Shown: positions 19,962 to 28,321 of the stretch, one piece after another
How the letters are laid out: each line of letters opens with the position of its first letter
Position numbering within the stretch: the stretch's first letter is position 1
Source of the DNA: Prochlorococcus marinus XMU1411
GTDB taxonomy: Bacteria > Cyanobacteriota > Cyanobacteriia > PCC-6307 > Cyanobiaceae
Length of the DNA: 64,000 nt
Direction: 5' to 3'
Assembly (NCBI RefSeq): GCF_017696075.1
Contig: NZ_JAAORI010000003.1
Coordinates: 186,001-250,000 of the forward strand
Made by a program: the position numbers and the translations under genes
The notes under the pieces: generated by a model
The model's database searches: none
Told to the model about the DNA's origin: nothing
Seen by the model: only the letters and a program-made list of their open reading frames with translations

Positions 19962-20732
19962 ATGGAACCAACTTCGAGTTTAAACAGAGGGGAACGAAAA
20001 AAAGGCAGTTCTCTTGTTACAGGATCTGAGGTGCAATCTCAGGCCAGTGGTGCAAGCTGTTTTATTACAACTGATTCAGAAAAGTCTTTGGTGTCCAGAC
20101 AAGCAAGTCAAGTTGAGCAAATTGAGTTGAGAACATATGTTTTTTTGGATTCTCTTCAACCTCAATTAGCTGCATATATGGGTACGGTTAGTAGAGGTTT
20201 TTTACCTATACCTGGAGATTCATGCCTTTGGATGGAAGTTTCACCTGGGATGGCCGTGCATAGAGTCACTGATATTGCCTTAAAAGCAAGTAATGTAAGA
20301 CTTGGTCAGATGATTGTTGAAAGAGCATTTGGCTCTCTTGCTCTTTATCACAAAGATCAAAGTACTGTTTTACATTCTGGTGATGTTGTTCTGGATGCTA
20401 TTGGAAGTGAAGTTAGAAAAAGAACCAAACCTTCAACAAGTTGGACAGAAGTTATTCGAGCTATTACTCCAGATCATGCTGTTTTAATAAATAGACAAAA
20501 TAGAAGTGGATCAATGATTCAATCTGGAATGAGCATGTTTATATTAGAAACTGAACCGGCTGGCTATGTCTTAAAAGCAGCAAATGAAGCAGAAAAAGCA
20601 TCAAATATAACTGTTGTTGATGTAAAGGCAGTTGGTGCTTTTGGTAGATTAACTCTAGCCGGGAAAGAAGGAGATGTAGAAGAAGCAGCAGCTGCTGCTA
20701 TAAGAGCAATAGATGAAATTTCAAATTATTGA
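19962..20732 (+). CDS. csoS1D: Carboxysome shell protein CsoS1D (tandem BMC domains)
   Basis: A 256-residue shell protein with two fused BMC domains after a ~50-residue variable N-terminus. It forms trimers (pseudohexamers) that stack and have a large gated pore. The gating residues described for Prochlorococcus CsoS1D fall exactly here: Glu120 and Arg121 in [11 protein letters not shown]. The second BMC domain ends [25 protein letters not shown]. It lies upstream of the main carboxysome operon, separated from csoS1 by rdgB on the other strand, the usual arrangement in alpha-cyanobacteria. A TATAGT box at 19949-19954 lies only 7 bases before the ATG, so if used the leader would be almost absent. 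Confidence 0.96.
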
Positions 20733-20739
20733 TAATTTT

Positions 20740-21324
20740 TTAATTTAAACCAATTTCTTTTTTGAGGTAAGGAGACATGATTTTGGCAGCTTTACCTCTG
20801 CTTCCTAACTTACTTAGTTGTGATTGTGAGAGCTCTCCATAAACAGAGTTAGCTTCTTTTACCCAAAAAATAGATTCAAACTCCCCATTTGGATATTTTG
20901 GTGCCTTAAGAATTTCTCCCCAGCATATTCCAGTTGTATCTTTCACTAAGTTTCCTGAGGGATCACATAAAACCATACAACTTATAAATCTTGCGCTCCT
21001 GTAAGGGCTATCAGAAAGTTCATTAATTAATTTTTTAATTTTTTCAGCGTTGTTTTTGGCATATCGAGCAGAATATATGCCTGGTCGACCATCTAAAATA
21101 TCCACTTCAAGGCCTGAATCGTCAGCTAATGCCCAAGTTTTTGTCTCTAGAGCAGCCGCTTTTGCTTTTAAAAGTGCATTTTCAAAATAGGTATTTCCAG
21201 TCTCTTCGATATTTAAATATTCTGGTTGCTTCTGAACCCTTAAGGACAAAACATCCAGCATTTCCGAAATTTCAGAAACTTTACTTTTGTTGCCACTCGC
21301 AATAGTAAGGACTGGAAGATTCAA
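20740..21324 (-). CDS. rdgB: Non-canonical purine NTP pyrophosphatase (HAM1/RdgB)
   Basis: Hydrolyses ITP, dITP and XTP to monophosphates, cleaning the nucleotide pool. Family motifs are IASGNKSKVSEISEML at the N-terminus, ALADDSGLEVDILDGRPGIYSARYA near residue 65-90 (substrate and metal binding), and the late LSQLSKLGSRGKAA. 194 residues, normal length. It is the only gene between csoS1D and csoS1 and is transcribed against them, convergent with csoS1D (7 bp) and divergent from csoS1. No functional link to carboxysomes is known; the placement may simply be ancestral. Confidence 0.95.
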   Translation of the reverse strand: MNLPVLTIASGNKSKVSEISEMLDVLSLRVQKQPEYLNIEETGNTYFENALLKAKAAALETKTWALADDSGLEVDILDGRPGIYSARYAKNNAEKIKKLINELSDSPYRSARFISCMVLCDPSGNLVKDTTGICWGEILKAPKYPNGEFESIFWVKEANSVYGELSQSQLSKLGSRGKAAKIMSPYLKKEIGLN

Positions 21325-21371
21325 AATAACAAATAAATTTATTGAGAATATTATCTTACTTCAAAGCTAGA

Positions 21372-21428
21372 TACGGAGACAGGAAAGGTTGAACATTCCA
21401 CACCTGTGTAGACAGGGCCTGCCTCGTA
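21372..21428. other. GC-richer folded element in the csoS1 upstream region
   Basis: Within the 327 bp gap between rdgB and csoS1, bases 21372-21383 (TACGGAGACAGG) can pair with 21418-21428 (CCTGCCTCGTA), interrupted by one bulge and one mismatch. Inside lies a second hairpin, CCTGT/ACAGG with a GTAG tetraloop (21403-21416). A T-run follows at 21449-21454. The stretch is clearly richer in GC than its surroundings. It could be a small RNA on either strand or a structured leader of rdgB. I do not recognise a named RNA family. Confidence 0.45.
21389..21402 (+). repeat. 14 bp direct repeat, copy 1
   Basis: TTGAACATTCCACA, identical to 21620-21633. This copy lies in the loop of the folded element, about 250 bp before csoS1. 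Two identical 14-mers in a few hundred bases are unlikely by chance. Confidence 0.7.
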
Positions 21429-21527
21429 CGGAAATAACATAATGTAAATTTTTTCTTAACACAAGAGTATGTTTTGATGCACTAACTAATTTGCATAAGT
21501 ATTGACATATCAATAATACCAAGGGTG

Positions 21528-21542
21528 ATAAGTTTAACTTAT
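21528..21542. promoter_or_regulatory. Candidate RbcR/CbbR (LysR-type) operator upstream of the carboxysome operon
   Basis: ATAAGTTTAACTTAT is a perfect 7 bp inverted repeat around one base. It fits the LysR-type T-N11-A rule and the CbbR/RbcR form TNA-N7-TNA (TAA-GTTTAAC-TTA), extended to ATNA-N7-TNAT. It lies 110 bp before csoS1 and about 68 bp before the start predicted from the -10-like TATAAG at 21591, which is the usual position of a LysR activator site. Binding is inferred. Confidence 0.55.
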
Positions 21543-21590
21543 GAATGATAGAAAAAACATTAATGGAGATTTTATCGAAAACGCTTGACT

Positions 21591-21596
21591 TATAAG
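21591..21596 (+). promoter_or_regulatory. Candidate -10 element for csoS1 operon
   Basis: TATAAG, inside the palindrome ACTTATAAGT (21588-21597). A start near 21603 would give a leader of ~49 bases. There is no good -35 at 17 bp, which would suit an activator-dependent promoter. A second option is the TTGACA at 21502-21507 with a poor TGATAA 18 bases on. Confidence 0.35.
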
Positions 21597-21619
21597 TACT
21601 TAATGAAGCATTCTTCGAA

Positions 21620-21633
21620 TTGAACATTCCACA
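21620..21633 (+). repeat. 14 bp direct repeat, copy 2 (csoS1 leader)
   Basis: TTGAACATTCCACA, second copy of 21389-21402, ending 18 bases before the csoS1 ATG. Its position in the presumed leader makes it a candidate protein- or RNA-binding site. Confidence 0.7.
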
Positions 21634-21651
21634 TTTAGTAATTAGTAGACA

Positions 21652-21963
21652 ATGGCTACAGAAACAATGGGTATCGCTCTCGGCATGATCGAGACACGCG
21701 GACTAGTACCTGCAATCGAAGCAGCAGATGCAATGACAAAGGCTGCAGAAGTTCGCCTTATTGGTCGTGAATTCGTAGGTGGCGGTTATGTCACAGTATT
21801 AGTTAGAGGCGAAACAGGCGCAGTTAACGCAGCTGTAAGAGCTGGTGCTGATGCTTGTGAAAGAGTTGGTGACGGCTTAGTTGCAGCTCACATTATTGCT
21901 CGTCCTCATAGAGAAGTTGAACCTGCTCTTGGTAATGGTGAATTTCTTGGTCAAAAGGACTAA
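21652..21963 (+). CDS. csoS1: Major carboxysome shell hexamer CsoS1
   Basis: A 103-residue single BMC-domain protein (MATETMGIALGMIETRG at the N-terminus, then AVRAGADACERVGDGLVAAHIIARPH). It forms flat hexamers that tile the facets of the alpha-carboxysome and pass bicarbonate and RuBP. It is the first gene of the csoS1-cbbL-cbbS-csoS2-csoSCA-csoS4A-csoS4B operon. Codon choice is visibly more GC-rich (CTC, GGC, CGC) than in neighbouring genes, as expected for a very highly expressed protein. Only one csoS1 paralogue is present, as usual in Prochlorococcus. Confidence 0.98.
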   Translation: MATETMGIALGMIETRGLVPAIEAADAMTKAAEVRLIGREFVGGGYVTVLVRGETGAVNAAVRAGADACERVGDGLVAAHIIARPHREVEPALGNGEFLGQKD

Positions 21964-21972
21964 TTAAGTAAA

Positions 21973-21992
21973 GCAAGATTTATAAATTTTGC
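21973..21992 (+). repeat. Small hairpin between csoS1 and cbbL
   Basis: GCAAGATT / AATTTTGC with loop TATA (one G-T pair). It lies in the 69 bp gap and is a weak hairpin, possibly involved in RNA processing. Confidence 0.3.
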
Positions 21993-22032
21993 ACAATAAT
22001 TATTTTCCCTACACAGACCTAAATTTATCCTT

Positions 22033-23448
22033 ATGAGTAAGAAGTATGATGCAGGGGTAAAGGAGTACAGAGATACCTACTGGACTCCTGAATATGTACC
22101 CCTAGACACCGATTTACTAGCCTGTTTCAAATGTACAGGTCAAGAAGGTGTTCCCAGAGAAGAAGTTGCAGCAGCTGTTGCCGCTGAATCTTCAACAGGT
22201 ACTTGGTCAACAGTTTGGTCCGAGTTACTTACAGATTTAGAATTTTATAAAGGACGTTGTTATCGAATCGAAGACGTTCCTGGAGATCCTGAAGCTTTTT
22301 ATGCTTTTATTGCATATCCTTTAGATCTTTTTGAAGAAGGTTCTATTACAAACGTATTAACATCTCTAGTAGGAAACGTTTTTGGATTTAAAGCTCTAAG
22401 ACACCTACGCCTAGAAGATATTAGATTCCCAATCGCTTTCATCAAAACTTGCGGTGGTCCACCAAATGGAATCGTGGTTGAAAGAGATCGTTTAAACAAA
22501 TATGGAAGACCTCTTCTTGGTTGTACCATTAAACCTAAATTAGGATTATCTGGTAAAAACTATGGTCGAGTTGTATACGAGTGCCTTAGAGGTGGTCTTG
22601 ATTTAACGAAGGATGACGAGAACATAAACTCTCAGCCATTCCAACGTTGGAGAGAAAGATTTGAGTTTGTTGCAGAAGCAGTTAAGCTTGCTCAGCAAGA
22701 AACTGGAGAAGTTAAAGGTCACTACCTAAACTGTACTGCCAACACTCCTGAAGAACTTTACGAGAGAGCTGAATTTGCAAAAGAGCTAGATATGCCAATC
22801 ATCATGCATGATTATATAACTGGCGGTTTTACAGCAAATACTGGATTAGCAAACTGGTGTCGTAAAAATGGCATGCTTCTACACATTCATAGAGCGATGC
22901 ATGCTGTTATTGATAGACATCCAAAACACGGTATTCATTTCAGGGTTCTAGCAAAATGTTTGAGACTCTCCGGAGGGGATCAATTACATACTGGAACTGT
23001 TGTTGGAAAACTAGAAGGTGATCGTCAAACAACTCTTGGTTACATTGATAACTTAAGAGAGTCATTTGTTCCCGAAGATAGATCAAGAGGTAACTTCTTT
23101 GATCAAGATTGGGGTTCAATGCCAGGAGTATTTGCTGTCGCATCAGGTGGTATTCACGTATGGCATATGCCTGCACTCCTAGCGATTTTTGGAGATGATT
23201 CTTGTCTTCAGTTTGGTGGAGGAACACATGGTCATCCATGGGGTTCAGCTGCTGGAGCTGCAGCTAACAGAGTTGCTTTAGAAGCTTGTGTAAAAGCACG
23301 TAATGCTGGTCGCGAAATCGAAAAAGAGAGTAGAGACATTCTTATGGAAGCTGCTAAACACAGTCCTGAATTAGCTATCGCTCTTGAAACTTGGAAGGAA
23401 ATTAAGTTTGAATTTGATACCGTCGACAAACTCGACGTTCAAGGTTAA
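22033..23448 (+). CDS. cbbL: RubisCO large subunit, form IA
   Basis: Catalytic subunit of ribulose-1,5-bisphosphate carboxylase/oxygenase, packed inside the carboxysome. 471 residues, starting [17 protein letters not shown] as in form IA enzymes. The active-site lysine region is [16 protein letters not shown]. The carbamylated lysine is Lys193 in [17 protein letters not shown]. Loop 6 carries [11 protein letters not shown]. The gene shows highly optimised codon use. It follows csoS1 by 69 bp and precedes cbbS by 93 bp containing a strong hairpin. Form IA, rather than the form IB of freshwater cyanobacteria, is the hallmark of alpha-cyanobacteria. Confidence 0.99.
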
Positions 23449-23541: not shown

Positions 23542-23883
23542 ATGCCTTTCCAGAGCACAGTAGGCGACTATCAAACAGTTGCAACCCTGGAAACATTCGG
23601 TTTCTTACCACCGATGACCCAGGAGGAAATATACGATCAAATTGCATACATAATTGCTCAAGGCTGGAGTCCTGTTATTGAGCATGTTCATCCTAGTGGA
23701 AGTATGCAAACTTATTGGTCTTATTGGAAGCTCCCATTCTTTGGGGAAAAAGACCTTAACTTGGTTGTAAGTGAATTAGAGGCATGTCATAGAGCATACC
23801 CTGATCATCATGTAAGAATCATCGGATACGATGCTTACACCCAAAGCCAAGGAACAGCTTTTGTAGTTTTCCAAGGACGTTAA
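23542..23883 (+). CDS. cbbS: RubisCO small subunit
   Basis: Small subunit of form IA RubisCO, 113 residues (MPFQSTVGDYQTVATLETFGFLPPMTQEEIYDQIAYI). The conserved YWSYWKLPFFGE segment and the HVRIIGYDAYTQSQGTAFVVF end are intact. Four-fold capping of the large-subunit core completes the L8S8 enzyme. CsoS2 N-repeats bind at the CbbL/CbbS interface in studied alpha-carboxysomes. A strong terminator-like hairpin follows 22 bp after its stop, so part of the transcript probably ends here. Confidence 0.98.
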   Translation: MPFQSTVGDYQTVATLETFGFLPPMTQEEIYDQIAYIIAQGWSPVIEHVHPSGSMQTYWSYWKLPFFGEKDLNLVVSELEACHRAYPDHHVRIIGYDAYTQSQGTAFVVFQGR

Positions 23884-23940: not shown

Positions 23941-23965
23941 CAAAAGAGTTTCACATTTGAAGATT

Positions 23966-26263
23966 ATGTCAAAAAAAACCAGTAGAGAGATTGCACTAGA
24001 AAGAAGAAAGGCGATGAGTGATAGCGGCAAAAAAGCTGCTGCTTTTTCTTCAACTACTCAAGATAGAGTTCGATCTTTTCAAGATATACAGATTTCTGGT
24101 ACTCAGTCTTCTCCAAATAATAAAAATATTACTAAACCAGTTACAAAACATATCCCAAAAACTTCGGTCAATAGTAAGTTTTCTTCAACAACTTTATCTA
24201 GTAAAGAGTTAGTAATAGAAAGAAGAAAAGCAATGTCTAGTCATGGTAAATCCGCAATTACTTCATCAGATAGAACTCGTACTGATGTTAAAAAAGAAAG
24301 CCCTGTAAACACAGTTAAAATTACTCCAAGCAAAAATCAAGAAGTTCAAAATTCACATAATACAGAAATTAAAATATCAAAATCAAACGTTAAAAGAAGA
24401 ATTAATCAGAAGAGAAAGCCTATTACTAATACAAGTAGAGATATTGTTTTAGCGAGAAGAGAAGCTCAATCTAAGCATGGTAAATCAGCAACTAAACAAA
24501 ATACCAGTGCAGCTTCTTTAGCTAGAAGGGGAGACCCAGATTTAAGTAGTAGAGAGATTTCGCAGAGAGTGAGAGAGCTAAGAAGTAAAACTGGTGCCAC
24601 AGGCAAAAAAGGTAATGGTAAATGTAGACCATGTGGTCCAAATAAAAATGGGGCCAAACAAAATATTGCTGATGCTAGCTGGAAAGTTGGTAAAAGTGAA
24701 ACTGATTCAGGTCAAATAGTTACTGGAACACAAGCTAATAGATCTGTAAAAACTACAGGTAATGAAGCAAGTACGTGTAGAACTGTCACTGGTACTCAAT
24801 ATATGGGAGCAGAAGTGGTTGACCAATTTTGTCAAGATAGATCAAGTTATAAACAACCACTTAGATCTACTGTTACCTCTACAACATCAGGTAATAAAGT
24901 AACTGGAAATGAAGTCGGTAGATCTGAGAGGGTCACAGGCGATGAGCCTGGGACTTGTAAAAACCTTACAGGTACTGAATATGTATCTGCTAATCAATCA
25001 CAGAAGTATTGTGATGATGTCCCAAAAAATCCCTCAAAGGTTAAACTTAGTACTACAATTGATGGATTAAAAGTATCTGGATCACTTCCTGGTAGATCAA
25101 CTCTGGTAACTGGAGATGAATCAGGTTCTGGACATCAGTTAACTGGAGATCAATATCTTGGCTCAGAGCCAAATCCTAAAGGCAAAGCATTTGAAAAAGT
25201 AGGCAGTTACAATACTCTAAATGGGAATAATGTAACTGGTACAGGGGTAGGAAGATCAGACCATATGACAGGCAATGAACATGGTAGTTGCAAGAATGTA
25301 ACTGGTGATGAGTACATAGGATCTCAACAATATGAGAAGTTTTGCGGTTCAAAACCAAAACCAGAAGCTAGAAAAGTAGGTTTAAGCCTTTCTTCAAAGT
25401 CAAATTTAATAAGTGGGACTATGACAGGAAGATCAAAAATAGTAACTGGAGACGAACCAGGTTCATGCAAAGTGCTAACAGGAACTCCATACGCAGGCTT
25501 AGATCAGATTAATGATAATTGTAATAATGAAATTTCTGAAGATATGAAATCACGAGCAATAGTTAATTCTGGAAATAATTCAAATGCCAGACTTACAGGT
25601 CAACAACCAGGAATTGGCGGAGTAATGACAGGTGCTAAGAAAGGTGCTTGTAAAAACCTAACGGGGACTCCTTATGTTGGTGGAGATCAGTTCTCACAAG
25701 CTTGTGATAATCCTCCAAATGATACTGCTTATGCGAATCCAGAAAAGTCAGCAGGCAACTCTTGGAACGAATTCTCTGTTAAATCACCATCAAGAGATCA
25801 ATATTCTGAAAAAAATACCCAAGGTGTTACGGGTAATGAATATGAAAATGGTTCAAAGGTAACAGGACCTTTTGATATGGCAGTTGATAAGGTCACTGGT
25901 ACTGAAAAATTTAGATTTGAACCGAATAAAAATATTACTTATAAACAAAAAATGGAAATCGAAGAAGCAGACCGTGCTGCAAAGACACCAGAAAAAAGAG
26001 TAGCATCAAGGATTACTGGTGAAGGACAATCAGTGGGAAACGTAACTGGTGATGATTGGGATCGCGGTGATAAGGTAACAGGCACTGAGGGAGCTTCTTC
26101 TAGAAAGCGAAATCCATCAAGAGCAGGATTCATGAGCGCAATGCCCCCTATGGAAGTTAAAAGAAATGAGGAAACAGAAAAACCAGATTTCTTGATAACT
26201 GGATCTAGTGGTAATACTCGTGAAGGACAACTTGTTACCTTTTCAGGTGGTGCAAGAGGGTAA
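23966..26263 (+). CDS. csoS2: Carboxysome assembly scaffold CsoS2
   Basis: A long, basic, intrinsically disordered scaffold joining RubisCO to the shell. I start at ATG 23966 (MSKKTSREIALERRK); an in-frame TTG at 23957 is less likely. The N-region has four repeats of the R-x-x-A-x-x-RR type (SREIALERRKAMSDSGK, SKELVIERRKAMSSHGK, SRDIVLARREAQSKHGK, SREISQRVRELRSKTG) that bind RubisCO. The middle region has six repeats with spaced VTG motifs; five carry a Cys pair, but the third (VTGDESGSGHQLTGDQY) has neither Cys. The C-region has further VTG motifs and the conserved end LITGSSGNTREGQLVTFSGGARG, which anchors the shell. It reads as one continuous frame of 765 residues, and I saw no sign of the short isoform made by frameshifting in Halothiobacillus. 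Confidence 0.97.
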   Translation: MSKKTSREIALERRKAMSDSGKKAAAFSSTTQDRVRSFQDIQISGTQSSPNNKNITKPVTKHIPKTSVNSKFSSTTLSSKELVIERRKAMSSHGKSAITSSDRTRTDVKKESPVNTVKITPSKNQEVQNSHNTEIKISKSNVKRRINQKRKPITNTSRDIVLARREAQSKHGKSATKQNTSAASLARRGDPDLSSREISQRVRELRSKTGATGKKGNGKCRPCGPNKNGAKQNIADASWKVGKSETDSGQIVTGTQANRSVKTTGNEASTCRTVTGTQYMGAEVVDQFCQDRSSYKQPLRSTVTSTTSGNKVTGNEVGRSERVTGDEPGTCKNLTGTEYVSANQSQKYCDDVPKNPSKVKLSTTIDGLKVSGSLPGRSTLVTGDESGSGHQLTGDQYLGSEPNPKGKAFEKVGSYNTLNGNNVTGTGVGRSDHMTGNEHGSCKNVTGDEYIGSQQYEKFCGSKPKPEARKVGLSLSSKSNLISGTMTGRSKIVTGDEPGSCKVLTGTPYAGLDQINDNCNNEISEDMKSRAIVNSGNNSNARLTGQQPGIGGVMTGAKKGACKNLTGTPYVGGDQFSQACDNPPNDTAYANPEKSAGNSWNEFSVKSPSRDQYSEKNTQGVTGNEYENGSKVTGPFDMAVDKVTGTEKFRFEPNKNITYKQKMEIEEADRAAKTPEKRVASRITGEGQSVGNVTGDDWDRGDKVTGTEGASSRKRNPSRAGFMSAMPPMEVKRNEETEKPDFLITGSSGNTREGQLVTFSGGARG

Positions 26264-26270
26264 GTAAATA

Positions 26271-27800
26271 ATGCCTTTAAGAGGACTGGCTAAAGCCAAG
26301 AACTTCACATTGGGGCCAACCGCTCCAATGAAAACTTTTACTGAGAATATCCATATACAAACTAAAGAATCAAATAATTTACGAAATTCTGGAAAGTCTC
26401 ATCAATTAACCAATAATATTCAAAATGAAAATCTATTTGGGTATGAAAGCAAGATAAAAAGTGATTTTGATGAAATTGTTCCAACTCTCAAGGAAATTGC
26501 CCGAATTCAACATCATGAAGATTTTATAAATAAGGCTCAGAAAATATCAAGAAAAAATTTAGGAATAGATTTACCTCTACATGTATTAGATAAATCTTGG
26601 GTTAAACCTCTTGATATGAGAGCTTTATATGCATGGTGTGCTTTCAAACAGCATGAGAAACTTAGCGACAATTTTTTTAACAATGATCCACTTGAAGGTG
26701 CTACTGGAAGTAGAGATGCGGAAGACTTTGAAAAATTTCTTTTAGATTGTGGAATACATTTGCTTGATATTACTCCTTGTTCAGATGGAAGATTAGCTCA
26801 TTCAGTTGCTTATGTAATGAGAATACCTTTTAGTTCAGTAAGAAGAAGATCCCATGCTGGAGCCCTTTTTGATATTGAAAATACCGTTAATCGATGGGTA
26901 AAAACTGAACATAAAAGATATAGAGAGAATGTTCCTAATGAAGCTCATAAAGATACCAGGTACTTAAAAGTTGTAACTTATCATTTTAGTTCAGTAGATC
27001 CTTTGCATCAGGGATGCGCAGCTCATGGAAGTAATGACGAGTTAGCTGCAGCAGAAGGTAGAAATAAATTGTATGCTTTCAAAGAGGCTGTAGAGAATAG
27101 CTTTTGCTGCGGAGCTTCTGTGGATTTAATGTTAATTGGACTTGATACAGACACTGATTCATTAAAAATACATTTACCAACTAGCGATGGAGGTATAGAT
27201 TTAGAAAAAACTATTTCTACATCAGAAATTTATAATTCAACAATAAATTTTTCAAAAGAGGATGCGGAAAGAGAAATTTGCCAGATAATTTCTAAGCAAT
27301 CTTCAAAAGATAAACTCAGTGGACTGGAAAAATTTACGTATAAATTAATTGTCAATAATATTTCTCAAATTGATTATGTTAAGAGTTTTCATAATGGTTC
27401 TTATGAAGATATTGGACATGCAGAGAGGTTTATTGGAGTAGGTATAGGTTTTAAAGAAGTACATCTCAGAAATTTAACTTATTTTGCTCATTTAGATACA
27501 GTCGAAGAAGGGGCTCCAGATTTAGATGTAGGAGTGAAGATTTTTACTGGATTAAATGTTTGTCAAGATCTACCTATTCCCGTAGTAATAAGATTTGATT
27601 ACTCTGGTAAAGTACCCGGCGCAAAAGAGAGGGCTATAAATGATTGTGAAAGAGTTAATAATGCGATATCAATTAGATATAAAAATTTAGTTGATCAAGG
27701 TTTGTTACATACTTGCTCTACTATTAGAGACAGGGACAACATTCATTCCGCCCAAATTATTGGAATGTCTTTAGATAAAAAAACAGAGGAGGCTCACTAA
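26271..27800 (+). CDS. csoS3: Carboxysomal carbonic anhydrase CsoSCA (CsoS3)
   Basis: Converts bicarbonate to CO2 inside the carboxysome; a divergent beta-class enzyme once called epsilon. 509 residues. The zinc ligands and active-site dyad can be read: Cys170 with Asp172 and Arg174 in TPCSDGR, His238 in TYHFSSVD and Cys249 in HQGCAAHG. The 11-residue spacing between His and the second Cys equals that in the Halothiobacillus enzyme. The N-terminal ~90 residues are disordered (GLAKAKNFTLGPTAP...) and in studied systems bind RubisCO. It starts 7 bp after the csoS2 stop and ends 2 bp before csoS4A. Confidence 0.97.
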   Translation: MPLRGLAKAKNFTLGPTAPMKTFTENIHIQTKESNNLRNSGKSHQLTNNIQNENLFGYESKIKSDFDEIVPTLKEIARIQHHEDFINKAQKISRKNLGIDLPLHVLDKSWVKPLDMRALYAWCAFKQHEKLSDNFFNNDPLEGATGSRDAEDFEKFLLDCGIHLLDITPCSDGRLAHSVAYVMRIPFSSVRRRSHAGALFDIENTVNRWVKTEHKRYRENVPNEAHKDTRYLKVVTYHFSSVDPLHQGCAAHGSNDELAAAEGRNKLYAFKEAVENSFCCGASVDLMLIGLDTDTDSLKIHLPTSDGGIDLEKTISTSEIYNSTINFSKEDAEREICQIISKQSSKDKLSGLEKFTYKLIVNNISQIDYVKSFHNGSYEDIGHAERFIGVGIGFKEVHLRNLTYFAHLDTVEEGAPDLDVGVKIFTGLNVCQDLPIPVVIRFDYSGKVPGAKERAINDCERVNNAISIRYKNLVDQGLLHTCSTIRDRDNIHSAQIIGMSLDKKTEEAH

Positions 27801-27802
27801 TC

Positions 27803-28054
27803 ATGTTAATTTGTAAGGTTGTAAAACCACTTGTTTCTACCAATAGGATTCCTGGATTTGAACATAAACATCTGCAGGTCGTATTAGATGGTTCTTCTAA
27901 TAAAGTTGCAGTTGATTCTGTTGGCTGTAAACCAGGAGATTGGGTTATTTGTGTTGGAAGTTCTGCAGCTAGGGAAGCAGCGGGAAGTAAATCTTATCCA
28001 AGCGATTTAACTATTGTTGGAATAATTGATCATTGGGATCCTGACAATTCATAA
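27803..28054 (+). CDS. csoS4A: Carboxysome vertex protein CsoS4A
   Basis: An 83-residue BMV (EutN/CcmL-type) pentamer that caps icosahedral vertices. It begins MLICKVVKPLVSTNRIPGFEH and contains GCKPGDWVICVGSSAARE and the end DLTIVGIIDHWD. It starts 2 bp after csoSCA with an AGAGGAGG-like Shine-Dalgarno sequence inside the csoSCA 3' end (near 27785-27792), implying translational coupling. A few pentamers per carboxysome are enough, in line with its late place in the operon. Confidence 0.97.
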   Translation: MLICKVVKPLVSTNRIPGFEHKHLQVVLDGSSNKVAVDSVGCKPGDWVICVGSSAAREAAGSKSYPSDLTIVGIIDHWDPDNS

Positions 28055-28072: not shown

Positions 28073-28321
28073 GTGGAAATCATGAAGGTACTAGGAAGGA
28101 TGGTATGCACTCAAAGAGTTTCTGGCTTAGGTCATATGAATTTACGAATTTTAGAAAATAATAAAGGAAAGAAATTAGTTGCTGTTGATCCTGTTGGAGC
28201 TAGAGAAGGTAACTGGGTTTTTACTGCTAGTGGCTCTGCCGCTAGATTTGCATGCCCTAATCCAGAAGTACAAACCGATTTAACAATTGGCGGTATTATT
28301 GATTATTGGGAGAGTGACTAA
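28073..28321 (+). CDS. csoS4B: Carboxysome vertex protein CsoS4B
   Basis: An 82-residue paralogue of CsoS4A (VLGRMVCTQRVSGLGHMNLR, VGAREGNWVFTASGSAARF, DLTIGGIIDYWESD). It is the second BMV pentamer type. The start is decided by a strong AGGAGG at 28058-28063, nine bases before GTG 28073; the in-frame ATG at 28082 is too far from it, and TTG at 28070 is out of frame. The protein is the last shell gene of the operon; the probable RubisCO assembly factor follows after 74 bp. Confidence 0.96.
   Translation: MEIMKVLGRMVCTQRVSGLGHMNLRILENNKGKKLVAVDPVGAREGNWVFTASGSAARFACPNPEVQTDLTIGGIIDYWESD

Follow-up and report, generated by a model that had tools for sequence, protein, structure and literature searches.

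An RbcR-type recognition site predicted upstream of the RubisCO–carboxysome operon of Prochlorococcus and its conservation in marine alpha-cyanobacteria

A large share of marine carbon fixation is due to alpha-cyanobacteria, Prochlorococcus among them, and the question raised by the locus described here is whether their genes for RubisCO and the carboxysome shell are switched, and by which regulator. The window (the whole stretch of DNA analysed, 64 kb of Prochlorococcus marinus XMU1411) carries on its plus strand a presumed operon that begins with csoS1 (21652–21963; BMC shell protein, PF00936) and continues with the RubisCO large subunit gene cbbL/rbcL (22033–23448; form IA by context; PF00016, PF02788), the small subunit gene (23542–23883; PF00101), csoS2 (23957–26263; PF12288), the shell carbonic anhydrase gene csoSCA (26271–27800; PF20686, PF08936, PF20687) and the genes csoS4A (27803–28054) and csoS4B (28073–28321) of two vertex proteins of the EutN/CcmL family (PF03319 each); the divergent neighbour is ham1 (20740–21324, minus strand; Ham1 family, PF01725). 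The RubisCO large subunit encoded here matches that of many Prochlorococcus records at 100% identity. A survey presumed that the carboxysome operon of cyanobacteria is constitutive because no local CbbR is present (PMC4207490), and the account of regulation in a 2026 review rests on other organisms, e.g., Synechocystis (PMC13249358).

The candidate operator, ATAAGTTTAACTTAT, was found at 21528–21542 precisely as the initial annotation had described it: a perfect 7+1+7 inverted repeat, assigned to neither strand, of the TNA/ATNA type, with 109 nt between its end at 21542 and the csoS1 ATG at 21652. It fits ATNA-N7-TNAT and can be written as arms AT.AG and CT.AT with a spacer of 5. The exact RbcR consensus, ATTA(G/A)-N5-(C/T)TAAT (PMC13249358, citing Bolay 2022), was missed by one base per arm; the NdhR/CcmR operator form ATAG-N8-CTAT was not matched, the box being ATAAG-N5-CTTAT.

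Conservation of the box: a scan with RubisCO protein gave 578 loci, of which the best 80 were taken; with L001, the same place as the window, the set came to 81. In 59 of these csoS1 was placed by tblastn, and these are cyanobacterial (alpha); the other 22 are proteobacterial, judged by title. AT.AG-N5-CT.AT was present in 58 of the 59 csoS1 upstream regions (drawn from the best 80 of 578 loci plus L001), starting 120–129 nt before csoS1; the sole exception, L035, is a MAG with the left arm ATCGG. In the 400 nt before cbbL the box was missing at 21 of the 22 proteobacterial loci. The 59 rows were thinned to 21 non-redundant ones (<35% shared 6-mers) and aligned with MAFFT, the box being left unused; the arms (positions 0, 1, 3, 4, 10, 11, 13, 14) reached 1.97 bits per position, against 0.35 over the 5 spacer positions and 0.68 over a further 197 well-filled columns. 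Rows anchored on TTGAC alone gave the same peaks, blurred by the 57–59 bp spacing; earlier information contents for csoS1 and petF came from pattern-anchored or selected rows and are partly circular, and the pattern-free alignments had the same outcome. A gap of 5 was found in 20 of the 21 rows, and 0–4 matches at the other gaps (gaps 0–15 tried). The csoS1 upstream regions thus contain the dyad ATNA(G/A)-N5-(C/T)TNAT with conserved arms and a free spacer, and the alignment upstream of csoS1 that the initial annotation had proposed as a check bears the box out. Comparison of these sequences shows the box to be deeply conserved in marine alpha-cyanobacteria, very probably as a site of RbcR. The conserved feature is not the perfect symmetry: of the 59 rows 35 have the perfect palindrome of the window, and the two arms behave differently, the right reading CTTAT in 20 of the 21 non-redundant rows and the left being free at its third base (0.27 bits). 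Many csoS1 promoters also have a half-conserved block, ca. TAACAGT[CT], at 21508–21515 (offsets −20 to −13; 0.6–1.3 bits per position).

Promoter elements downstream of the box, all on the plus strand: the −35 hexamer TTGACT lies at 21585–21590, and TTGAC was present in 59/59 rows at 57, 58 or 59 bp from the box start (27, 29 and 3 rows, respectively); the −10 hexamer CATTCT lies at 21609–21614 after an 18-bp spacer (nAnnnT in 59/59 rows, CAnnnT in 54/59). The predicted start, ca. 21622, falls in a conserved leader start, TTGAACATTCCACA (21620–21633), and GAAC occupies the same place in 58/59 rows. A further conserved block, ACATTAAT (21557–21564, plus strand), ends 22 bp past the box and has A, T, A and T at offsets 29, 33, 35 and 36 from the box start (1.7–2.0 bits in the 21 rows). 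LysR-type regulators generally bind as tetramers with a separate activation half-site, and by analogy this block may be such a half-site.

The conserved TTGAC and nAnnnT lead to the predicted start at ca. 21622 and so to a box centre near −87; the activating position published for RbcR of Synechocystis is ca. 90 nt upstream of the start (PMC13249358, citing Bolay 2022). The initial annotation had taken TATAAG at 21591–21596 as the −10 element, with the box near −68 and the start 60–75 bp downstream of it. TATAAG is present, but it follows directly after TTGACT in 28 of the 59 rows and in only 1 of the 21 non-redundant ones; it was given up as the −10, and the start at ca. 21622, itself a prediction, would lie outside the range of 60–75 bp. 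A plain consensus promoter scan did not report the csoS1 promoter because its −10 is poor. Mapped csoS1 start sites were not found in the open-licence literature, and neither PMC5607370 nor PMC5069720 mentions csoS1, rbcL or the carboxysome in its main text; a table of PMC1242208 has an element of 336 nt, present in two of four genomes, under 'Region upstream of the rbcLS cluster containing conserved promoter', which probably corresponds to this intergenic region and was thus pointed out already in 2005.

These distances bear on the manner of action. RbcR can repress from a site ca. 10 nt upstream of the start (PMC13249358), and expression of cyanobacterial alpha-carboxysomes was presumed constitutive (PMC4207490); binding at csoS1 as a repressor, or constitutive binding with little regulatory effect, would accord with these statements and is nevertheless unlikely, since the predicted site near −87 is close to the published activating position and the combination of a good −35 with a poor −10 would fit an activator-dependent promoter. 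Activation by RbcR is accordingly preferred, and the RubisCO–carboxysome genes are probably under the control of a regulator, not permanently on.

The same dyad at other genes: for comparison, 20 RbcX-bearing beta-cyanobacteria were picked for spread from 31 positives among 78 genomes, and 19 of the 20 fetched regions upstream of form-IB rbcL were placed (600 nt each). ATNAR-N5-YTNAT gave 16 matches in 12 of the 19, and other gaps gave 0–5; Markov-simulated upstream regions gave 2.2 matches on average and 9 at most in 300 simulations. The remaining 7 of 19 had no box in the 600 nt searched. The ferredoxin gene petF was reached through a perfect-arm pattern match in the genome of the window (L151:1038–1052), whose left arm shares bases with the stop codon of the preceding gene. 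A box stood before petF in 26 of 30 alpha genomes (L272–L301; 31 genomes of the family searched), at −132 to −161 (other gaps, 0–4 matches); with all 30 rows aligned without selection, the arms had 1.82, the spacer 0.43 and the other columns 0.66 bits. A further block, TTTGATTGGCCTT, follows in these upstream regions at +27 to +39. In beta genomes, taking the best ferredoxin gene of each, 14 of 20 had a box before petF (19 matches; other gaps, 0–8), and 6 of 20 had none in the 500 nt searched (one, 242 nt). Several of the boxes before beta rbcL and petF are of the ATAAG-N5-CTTAT variant, as in the window, and the published RbcR consensus therefore seems too narrow.

The petF literature was sought only after the petF boxes had been found. 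In Anabaena, PacR (rbcR, all3953) is stated to bind the petF promoter directly, and petF is down in the pacR mutant (PMC12052932, 2025; direct binding citing Picossi 2015). With boxes in 26/30 alpha and 14/20 beta genomes, petF thus provides the motif at another RbcR target; the orthology of PacR is taken from the papers. Neither petF nor ferredoxin is named in the main text of PMC12014562, where genes of the Synechocystis RbcR regulon are listed. For csoS1D, tried as a further box-bearing gene, 49 upstream regions (3 proteobacterial) yielded loose matches in 5 (the wrongly cut L047 included) with no common position, and this candidate was dropped.

The regulator: the host genome of the window (1.67 Mb) has one LysR-type gene, the orthologue of RbcR; the sole LysR gene of MED4 is likewise named RbcR (PMC6778093). 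The gene was found in 25 of 31 genomes of the genus, including 11/11 of those at least 90% complete and little contaminated. Among the 20 beta genomes 19 had an orthologue at 64–68% identity, other LysR matches reaching at most 40%; by this comparison RbcR is orthologous to the LysR gene that beta-cyanobacteria conserve best. In a tree of 39 rows alpha and beta RbcR were joined with support 100/99 (the tool gave a long-branch warning), the paralogues and the one proteobacterial CbbR found falling outside this clade; the DNA-binding regions of alpha and beta RbcR are closely similar. In NCBIfam no RbcR model passed, the best matches being to other LysR families and below the cut-offs. By tblastn with a cyanobacterial RbcR (flanks of up to 3 kb on each side) no LysR gene was found beside the RubisCO operon at any of the 59 cyanobacterial loci, and the divergent cbbR–cbbL arrangement of proteobacteria was absent from them. 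The same search gave one match among the 22 proteobacterial loci (L081), fewer than is reported in PMC4207490, perhaps because of the query or the choice of loci.

Two beta genomes of one genus were noted separately: G104 (L196, L317, L224), the only one of the 20 in which RbcR was not detected, has no box at rbcL or petF, and in G044, of the same genus, RbcR is present and each of the two genes is preceded by a loose box. Upstream of rbcR itself, ATNAG-N5-CTNAT was found in 0 of 25 loci of the genus, and the looser ATNA-N7-TNAT in 9 of 25, five of these at −59/−60. In Synechocystis, RbcR is described as acting on its own gene as well (PMC13249358); as the dyad is missing here, autoregulation would need another site. 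The regions L098–L122 have a conserved block, TTAACAA-N-AAT ... ATTAGAATTAT, ca. 20–60 nt before rbcR, which is possibly an autoregulatory site of another form.

Conservation alone names no protein, and the regulators listed for MED4 include several other families (PMC6778093), so that the box could be taken for the conserved site of another dimeric regulator (GntR, ArsR or Crp type, or a response regulator). This is very unlikely: the same gap-5 dyad stands at beta rbcL and petF, the box agrees with the published RbcR consensus save for one base per arm (PMC13249358), and direct binding of PacR/RbcR to the petF promoter is stated for Anabaena (PMC12052932). That G104, where RbcR was not detected, has no box at either gene points the same way, yet six other rbcL and five other petF upstream regions are also boxless. 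RbcR remains the preferred binder.

Chance statistics: in the 64-kb window ATNA-N7-TNAT had 81 matches (74.9 expected), ATNAG-N5-CTNAT 2 (2.6 expected) and perfect 7+1+7 repeats of any sequence 18 (9.5 ± 2.9 expected). Genome-wide, ATNAG-N5-CTNAT had 59 sites against 43 for the reversed control, ATTAR-N5-YTAAT 136 against 95, and ATAAG-N5-CTNAT 18 forward and 22 reverse against 22 and 14. A lone box is a chance-level match; it is conservation that makes the box real. A chance palindrome in an AT-rich genome, which these frequencies by themselves would allow, is practically dismissed by the conserved arms and free spacer over 21 non-redundant upstream regions, the near-fixed distance to the −35 and the gap-5 preference in 20 of 21 rows. 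Motif counts alone were dropped as evidence, the genome-wide numbers being near their controls, and for the same reason the motif by itself cannot list the regulon. When 57 of the 59 genomic ATNAG-N5-CTNAT sites were examined together with open reading frames, 9 were intergenic by a crude rule; conservation tests covered csoS1 and petF, and the remaining seven (L085, L097, L133, L137, L140, L147, L153) could include further targets. At L153:1087–1101 (position 331486 of contig C4 of the host genome) a perfect-arm box, ATAAGTAATTCTTAT, lies in a gene-poor stretch.

The core of the initial annotation, an RbcR-class site before RubisCO and the shell genes, is strongly supported by the conservation, the motif at beta rbcL and petF and the single LysR gene that is an RbcR orthologue; the promoter geometry attached to it did not hold. 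On these sequence comparisons we regard the box with high confidence as a recognition site of RbcR. RbcR would bind as a tetramer to the dyad (centre near −87) and to a weaker site at ca. 21557–21564 (near −60), would help sigma-70 RNA polymerase at an activator-dependent promoter (TTGACT, CATTCT, 18-bp spacer) and would so turn on csoS1-cbbL-cbbS-csoS2-csoSCA-csoS4AB as one operon. The trigger may be Calvin-cycle metabolites signalling carbon limitation or excess light; RuBP, 3PGA and NADPH are effectors of red-algal Ycf30 (PMC4390856), and those of cyanobacterial RbcR are described as yet to be identified (PMC13249358).

A neighbouring feature, which is not needed for the RbcR reading, was found in the same intergenic region. 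It is a structured RNA element before ham1 (21376–21425, minus strand) with a covarying stem and a loop antisense to the predicted 5' end of the csoS1 mRNA; from the minus-strand flanks, a −10 TATGTT is predicted at 21436–21441 and a −35 candidate TTGTGT at 21459–21464 (both minus strand). Minus-strand TAnnnT starts 13–18 nt before the element in 16 of 20 rows and 12 nt before it in three more (by eye). A covariance model built from four sequences matched 22 of 36 sources at E up to 0.08 (four being the seeds; L001 and the window, one and the same place, E 4e-5), and one further match, on the plus strand, is spurious. In the model-fitted alignment, the spurious row included, 8/8 pairs of the outer stem had changes on both sides with 97% of cells paired, and covariation was 0.440 against 0.189 for shuffled and at most 0.103 for slid alignments. 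One copy each was found in 38 of 81 genomes of the family (E 0.01, strict filters). In 20/20 fetched loci ham1 lies downstream of the element on the same strand (51–691 nt), and csoS1 is present within 8 of them, so the element belongs with ham1. Rfam gave no match there; elsewhere in 20600–22100 it gave only a sub-threshold L20_leader (20674–20766, E 0.14).

The leader start TTGAACATTCCACA of csoS1 has an exact copy at 21389–21402, inside the element; a third copy (position 160633 of contig C3 of the host genome), next to a sigma-factor-like gene and before a PriA-like one (both named by eye), looks incidental. Duplexes of the loop with the csoS1 5' end were predicted at −27 to −47 kcal/mol; own pairs averaged −35.2 and swapped pairs −29.8, and a permutation test gave 0/5000 with relatedness uncontrolled. 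Exact runs shared by leader and loop are 9–16 nt long, with none of at least 8 in L045. Matching changes in the two copies are few: L028 agrees and L038 partly, L031, L045 and L052 have mismatches and L030 a wobble pair. Because of this mixed co-variation, regulatory pairing of the loop with csoS1 mRNA is put forward as a lead and not as a finding. The element was not found in L035, L039, L047, L048, L051 and L053–L057. The csoS1 leader start departs from GAACATTCC in L035, L039, L051 and L057, all among the loci with no match to the element. An antisense RNA, RblR, is reported to act on RubisCO in Synechocystis (PMC5306279), and csoS1 mRNA is a reported target of Yfr10 in MED4 (PMC6778093).

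Taken jointly, these observations would describe two-level control from one divergent intergenic region, in which RbcR captured an acquired cso operon, replacing a local CbbR, and co-drives ferredoxin, and a structured RNA without an Rfam match, transcribed in the opposite direction before ham1, pairs through its loop with the start of the csoS1 mRNA over at most 16 bases; this combined scheme is offered tentatively, as a rather doubtful whole.

Proteobacterial CbbR, likewise of the LysR type, governs form-I RubisCO and carboxysome genes through sites of the T-N11-A type. In chemoautotrophs cbbR usually lies right upstream of cbbL (PMC4207490), whereas the cyanobacterial loci studied here have no flanking LysR gene and their regulator groups, unlike CbbR, with cyanobacterial RbcR (39-row tree). 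The form-IA cso operon is believed to have been laterally acquired (PMC4390856); since the box is absent from the 400 nt before cbbL at 21 of 22 proteobacterial loci, the simplest reading is that the RbcR of the host took control of the acquired operon. An RbcR operator at this place would contradict the published presumption of constitutive expression (PMC4207490). A paper naming this operator was not found in the open-licence literature, as far as its available text goes. A conserved RbcR operator makes the question testable, since it points to the probable switch, to ferredoxin as another target and to the bases that should be altered.

The nearest known system is RbcR (sll0998) of Synechocystis PCC 6803, which by published description is alike in the motif form ATNA(G/A)-N5-(C/T)TNAT and in having RubisCO and carboxysome targets, and its activating position of ca. 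90 nt is close to the −87 predicted here (PMC13249358, PMC12014562). Its targets are rbcLXS and the beta-carboxysome operon ccmK2K1LMN, whereas here it is the form-IA cso operon that carries the site, and the box of the window differs from its consensus by one base per arm. PacR (all3953) of Anabaena PCC 7120, called rbcR and stated to bind petF (PMC12052932), corresponds to the petF box seen in most genomes here; it differs in its nitrogen-fixing filamentous host and larger regulon, and the text of that paper gives no motif ('motif' and 'binding site', 0 occurrences). The carbon-acquisition LysR regulators NdhR/CcmR and CmpR recognise ATAG-N8-CTAT and TTA-N7/8-TAA sites, respectively (PMC13249358); these have other arms or another spacing than the box, and the single LysR gene of the host genome is the orthologue of RbcR.
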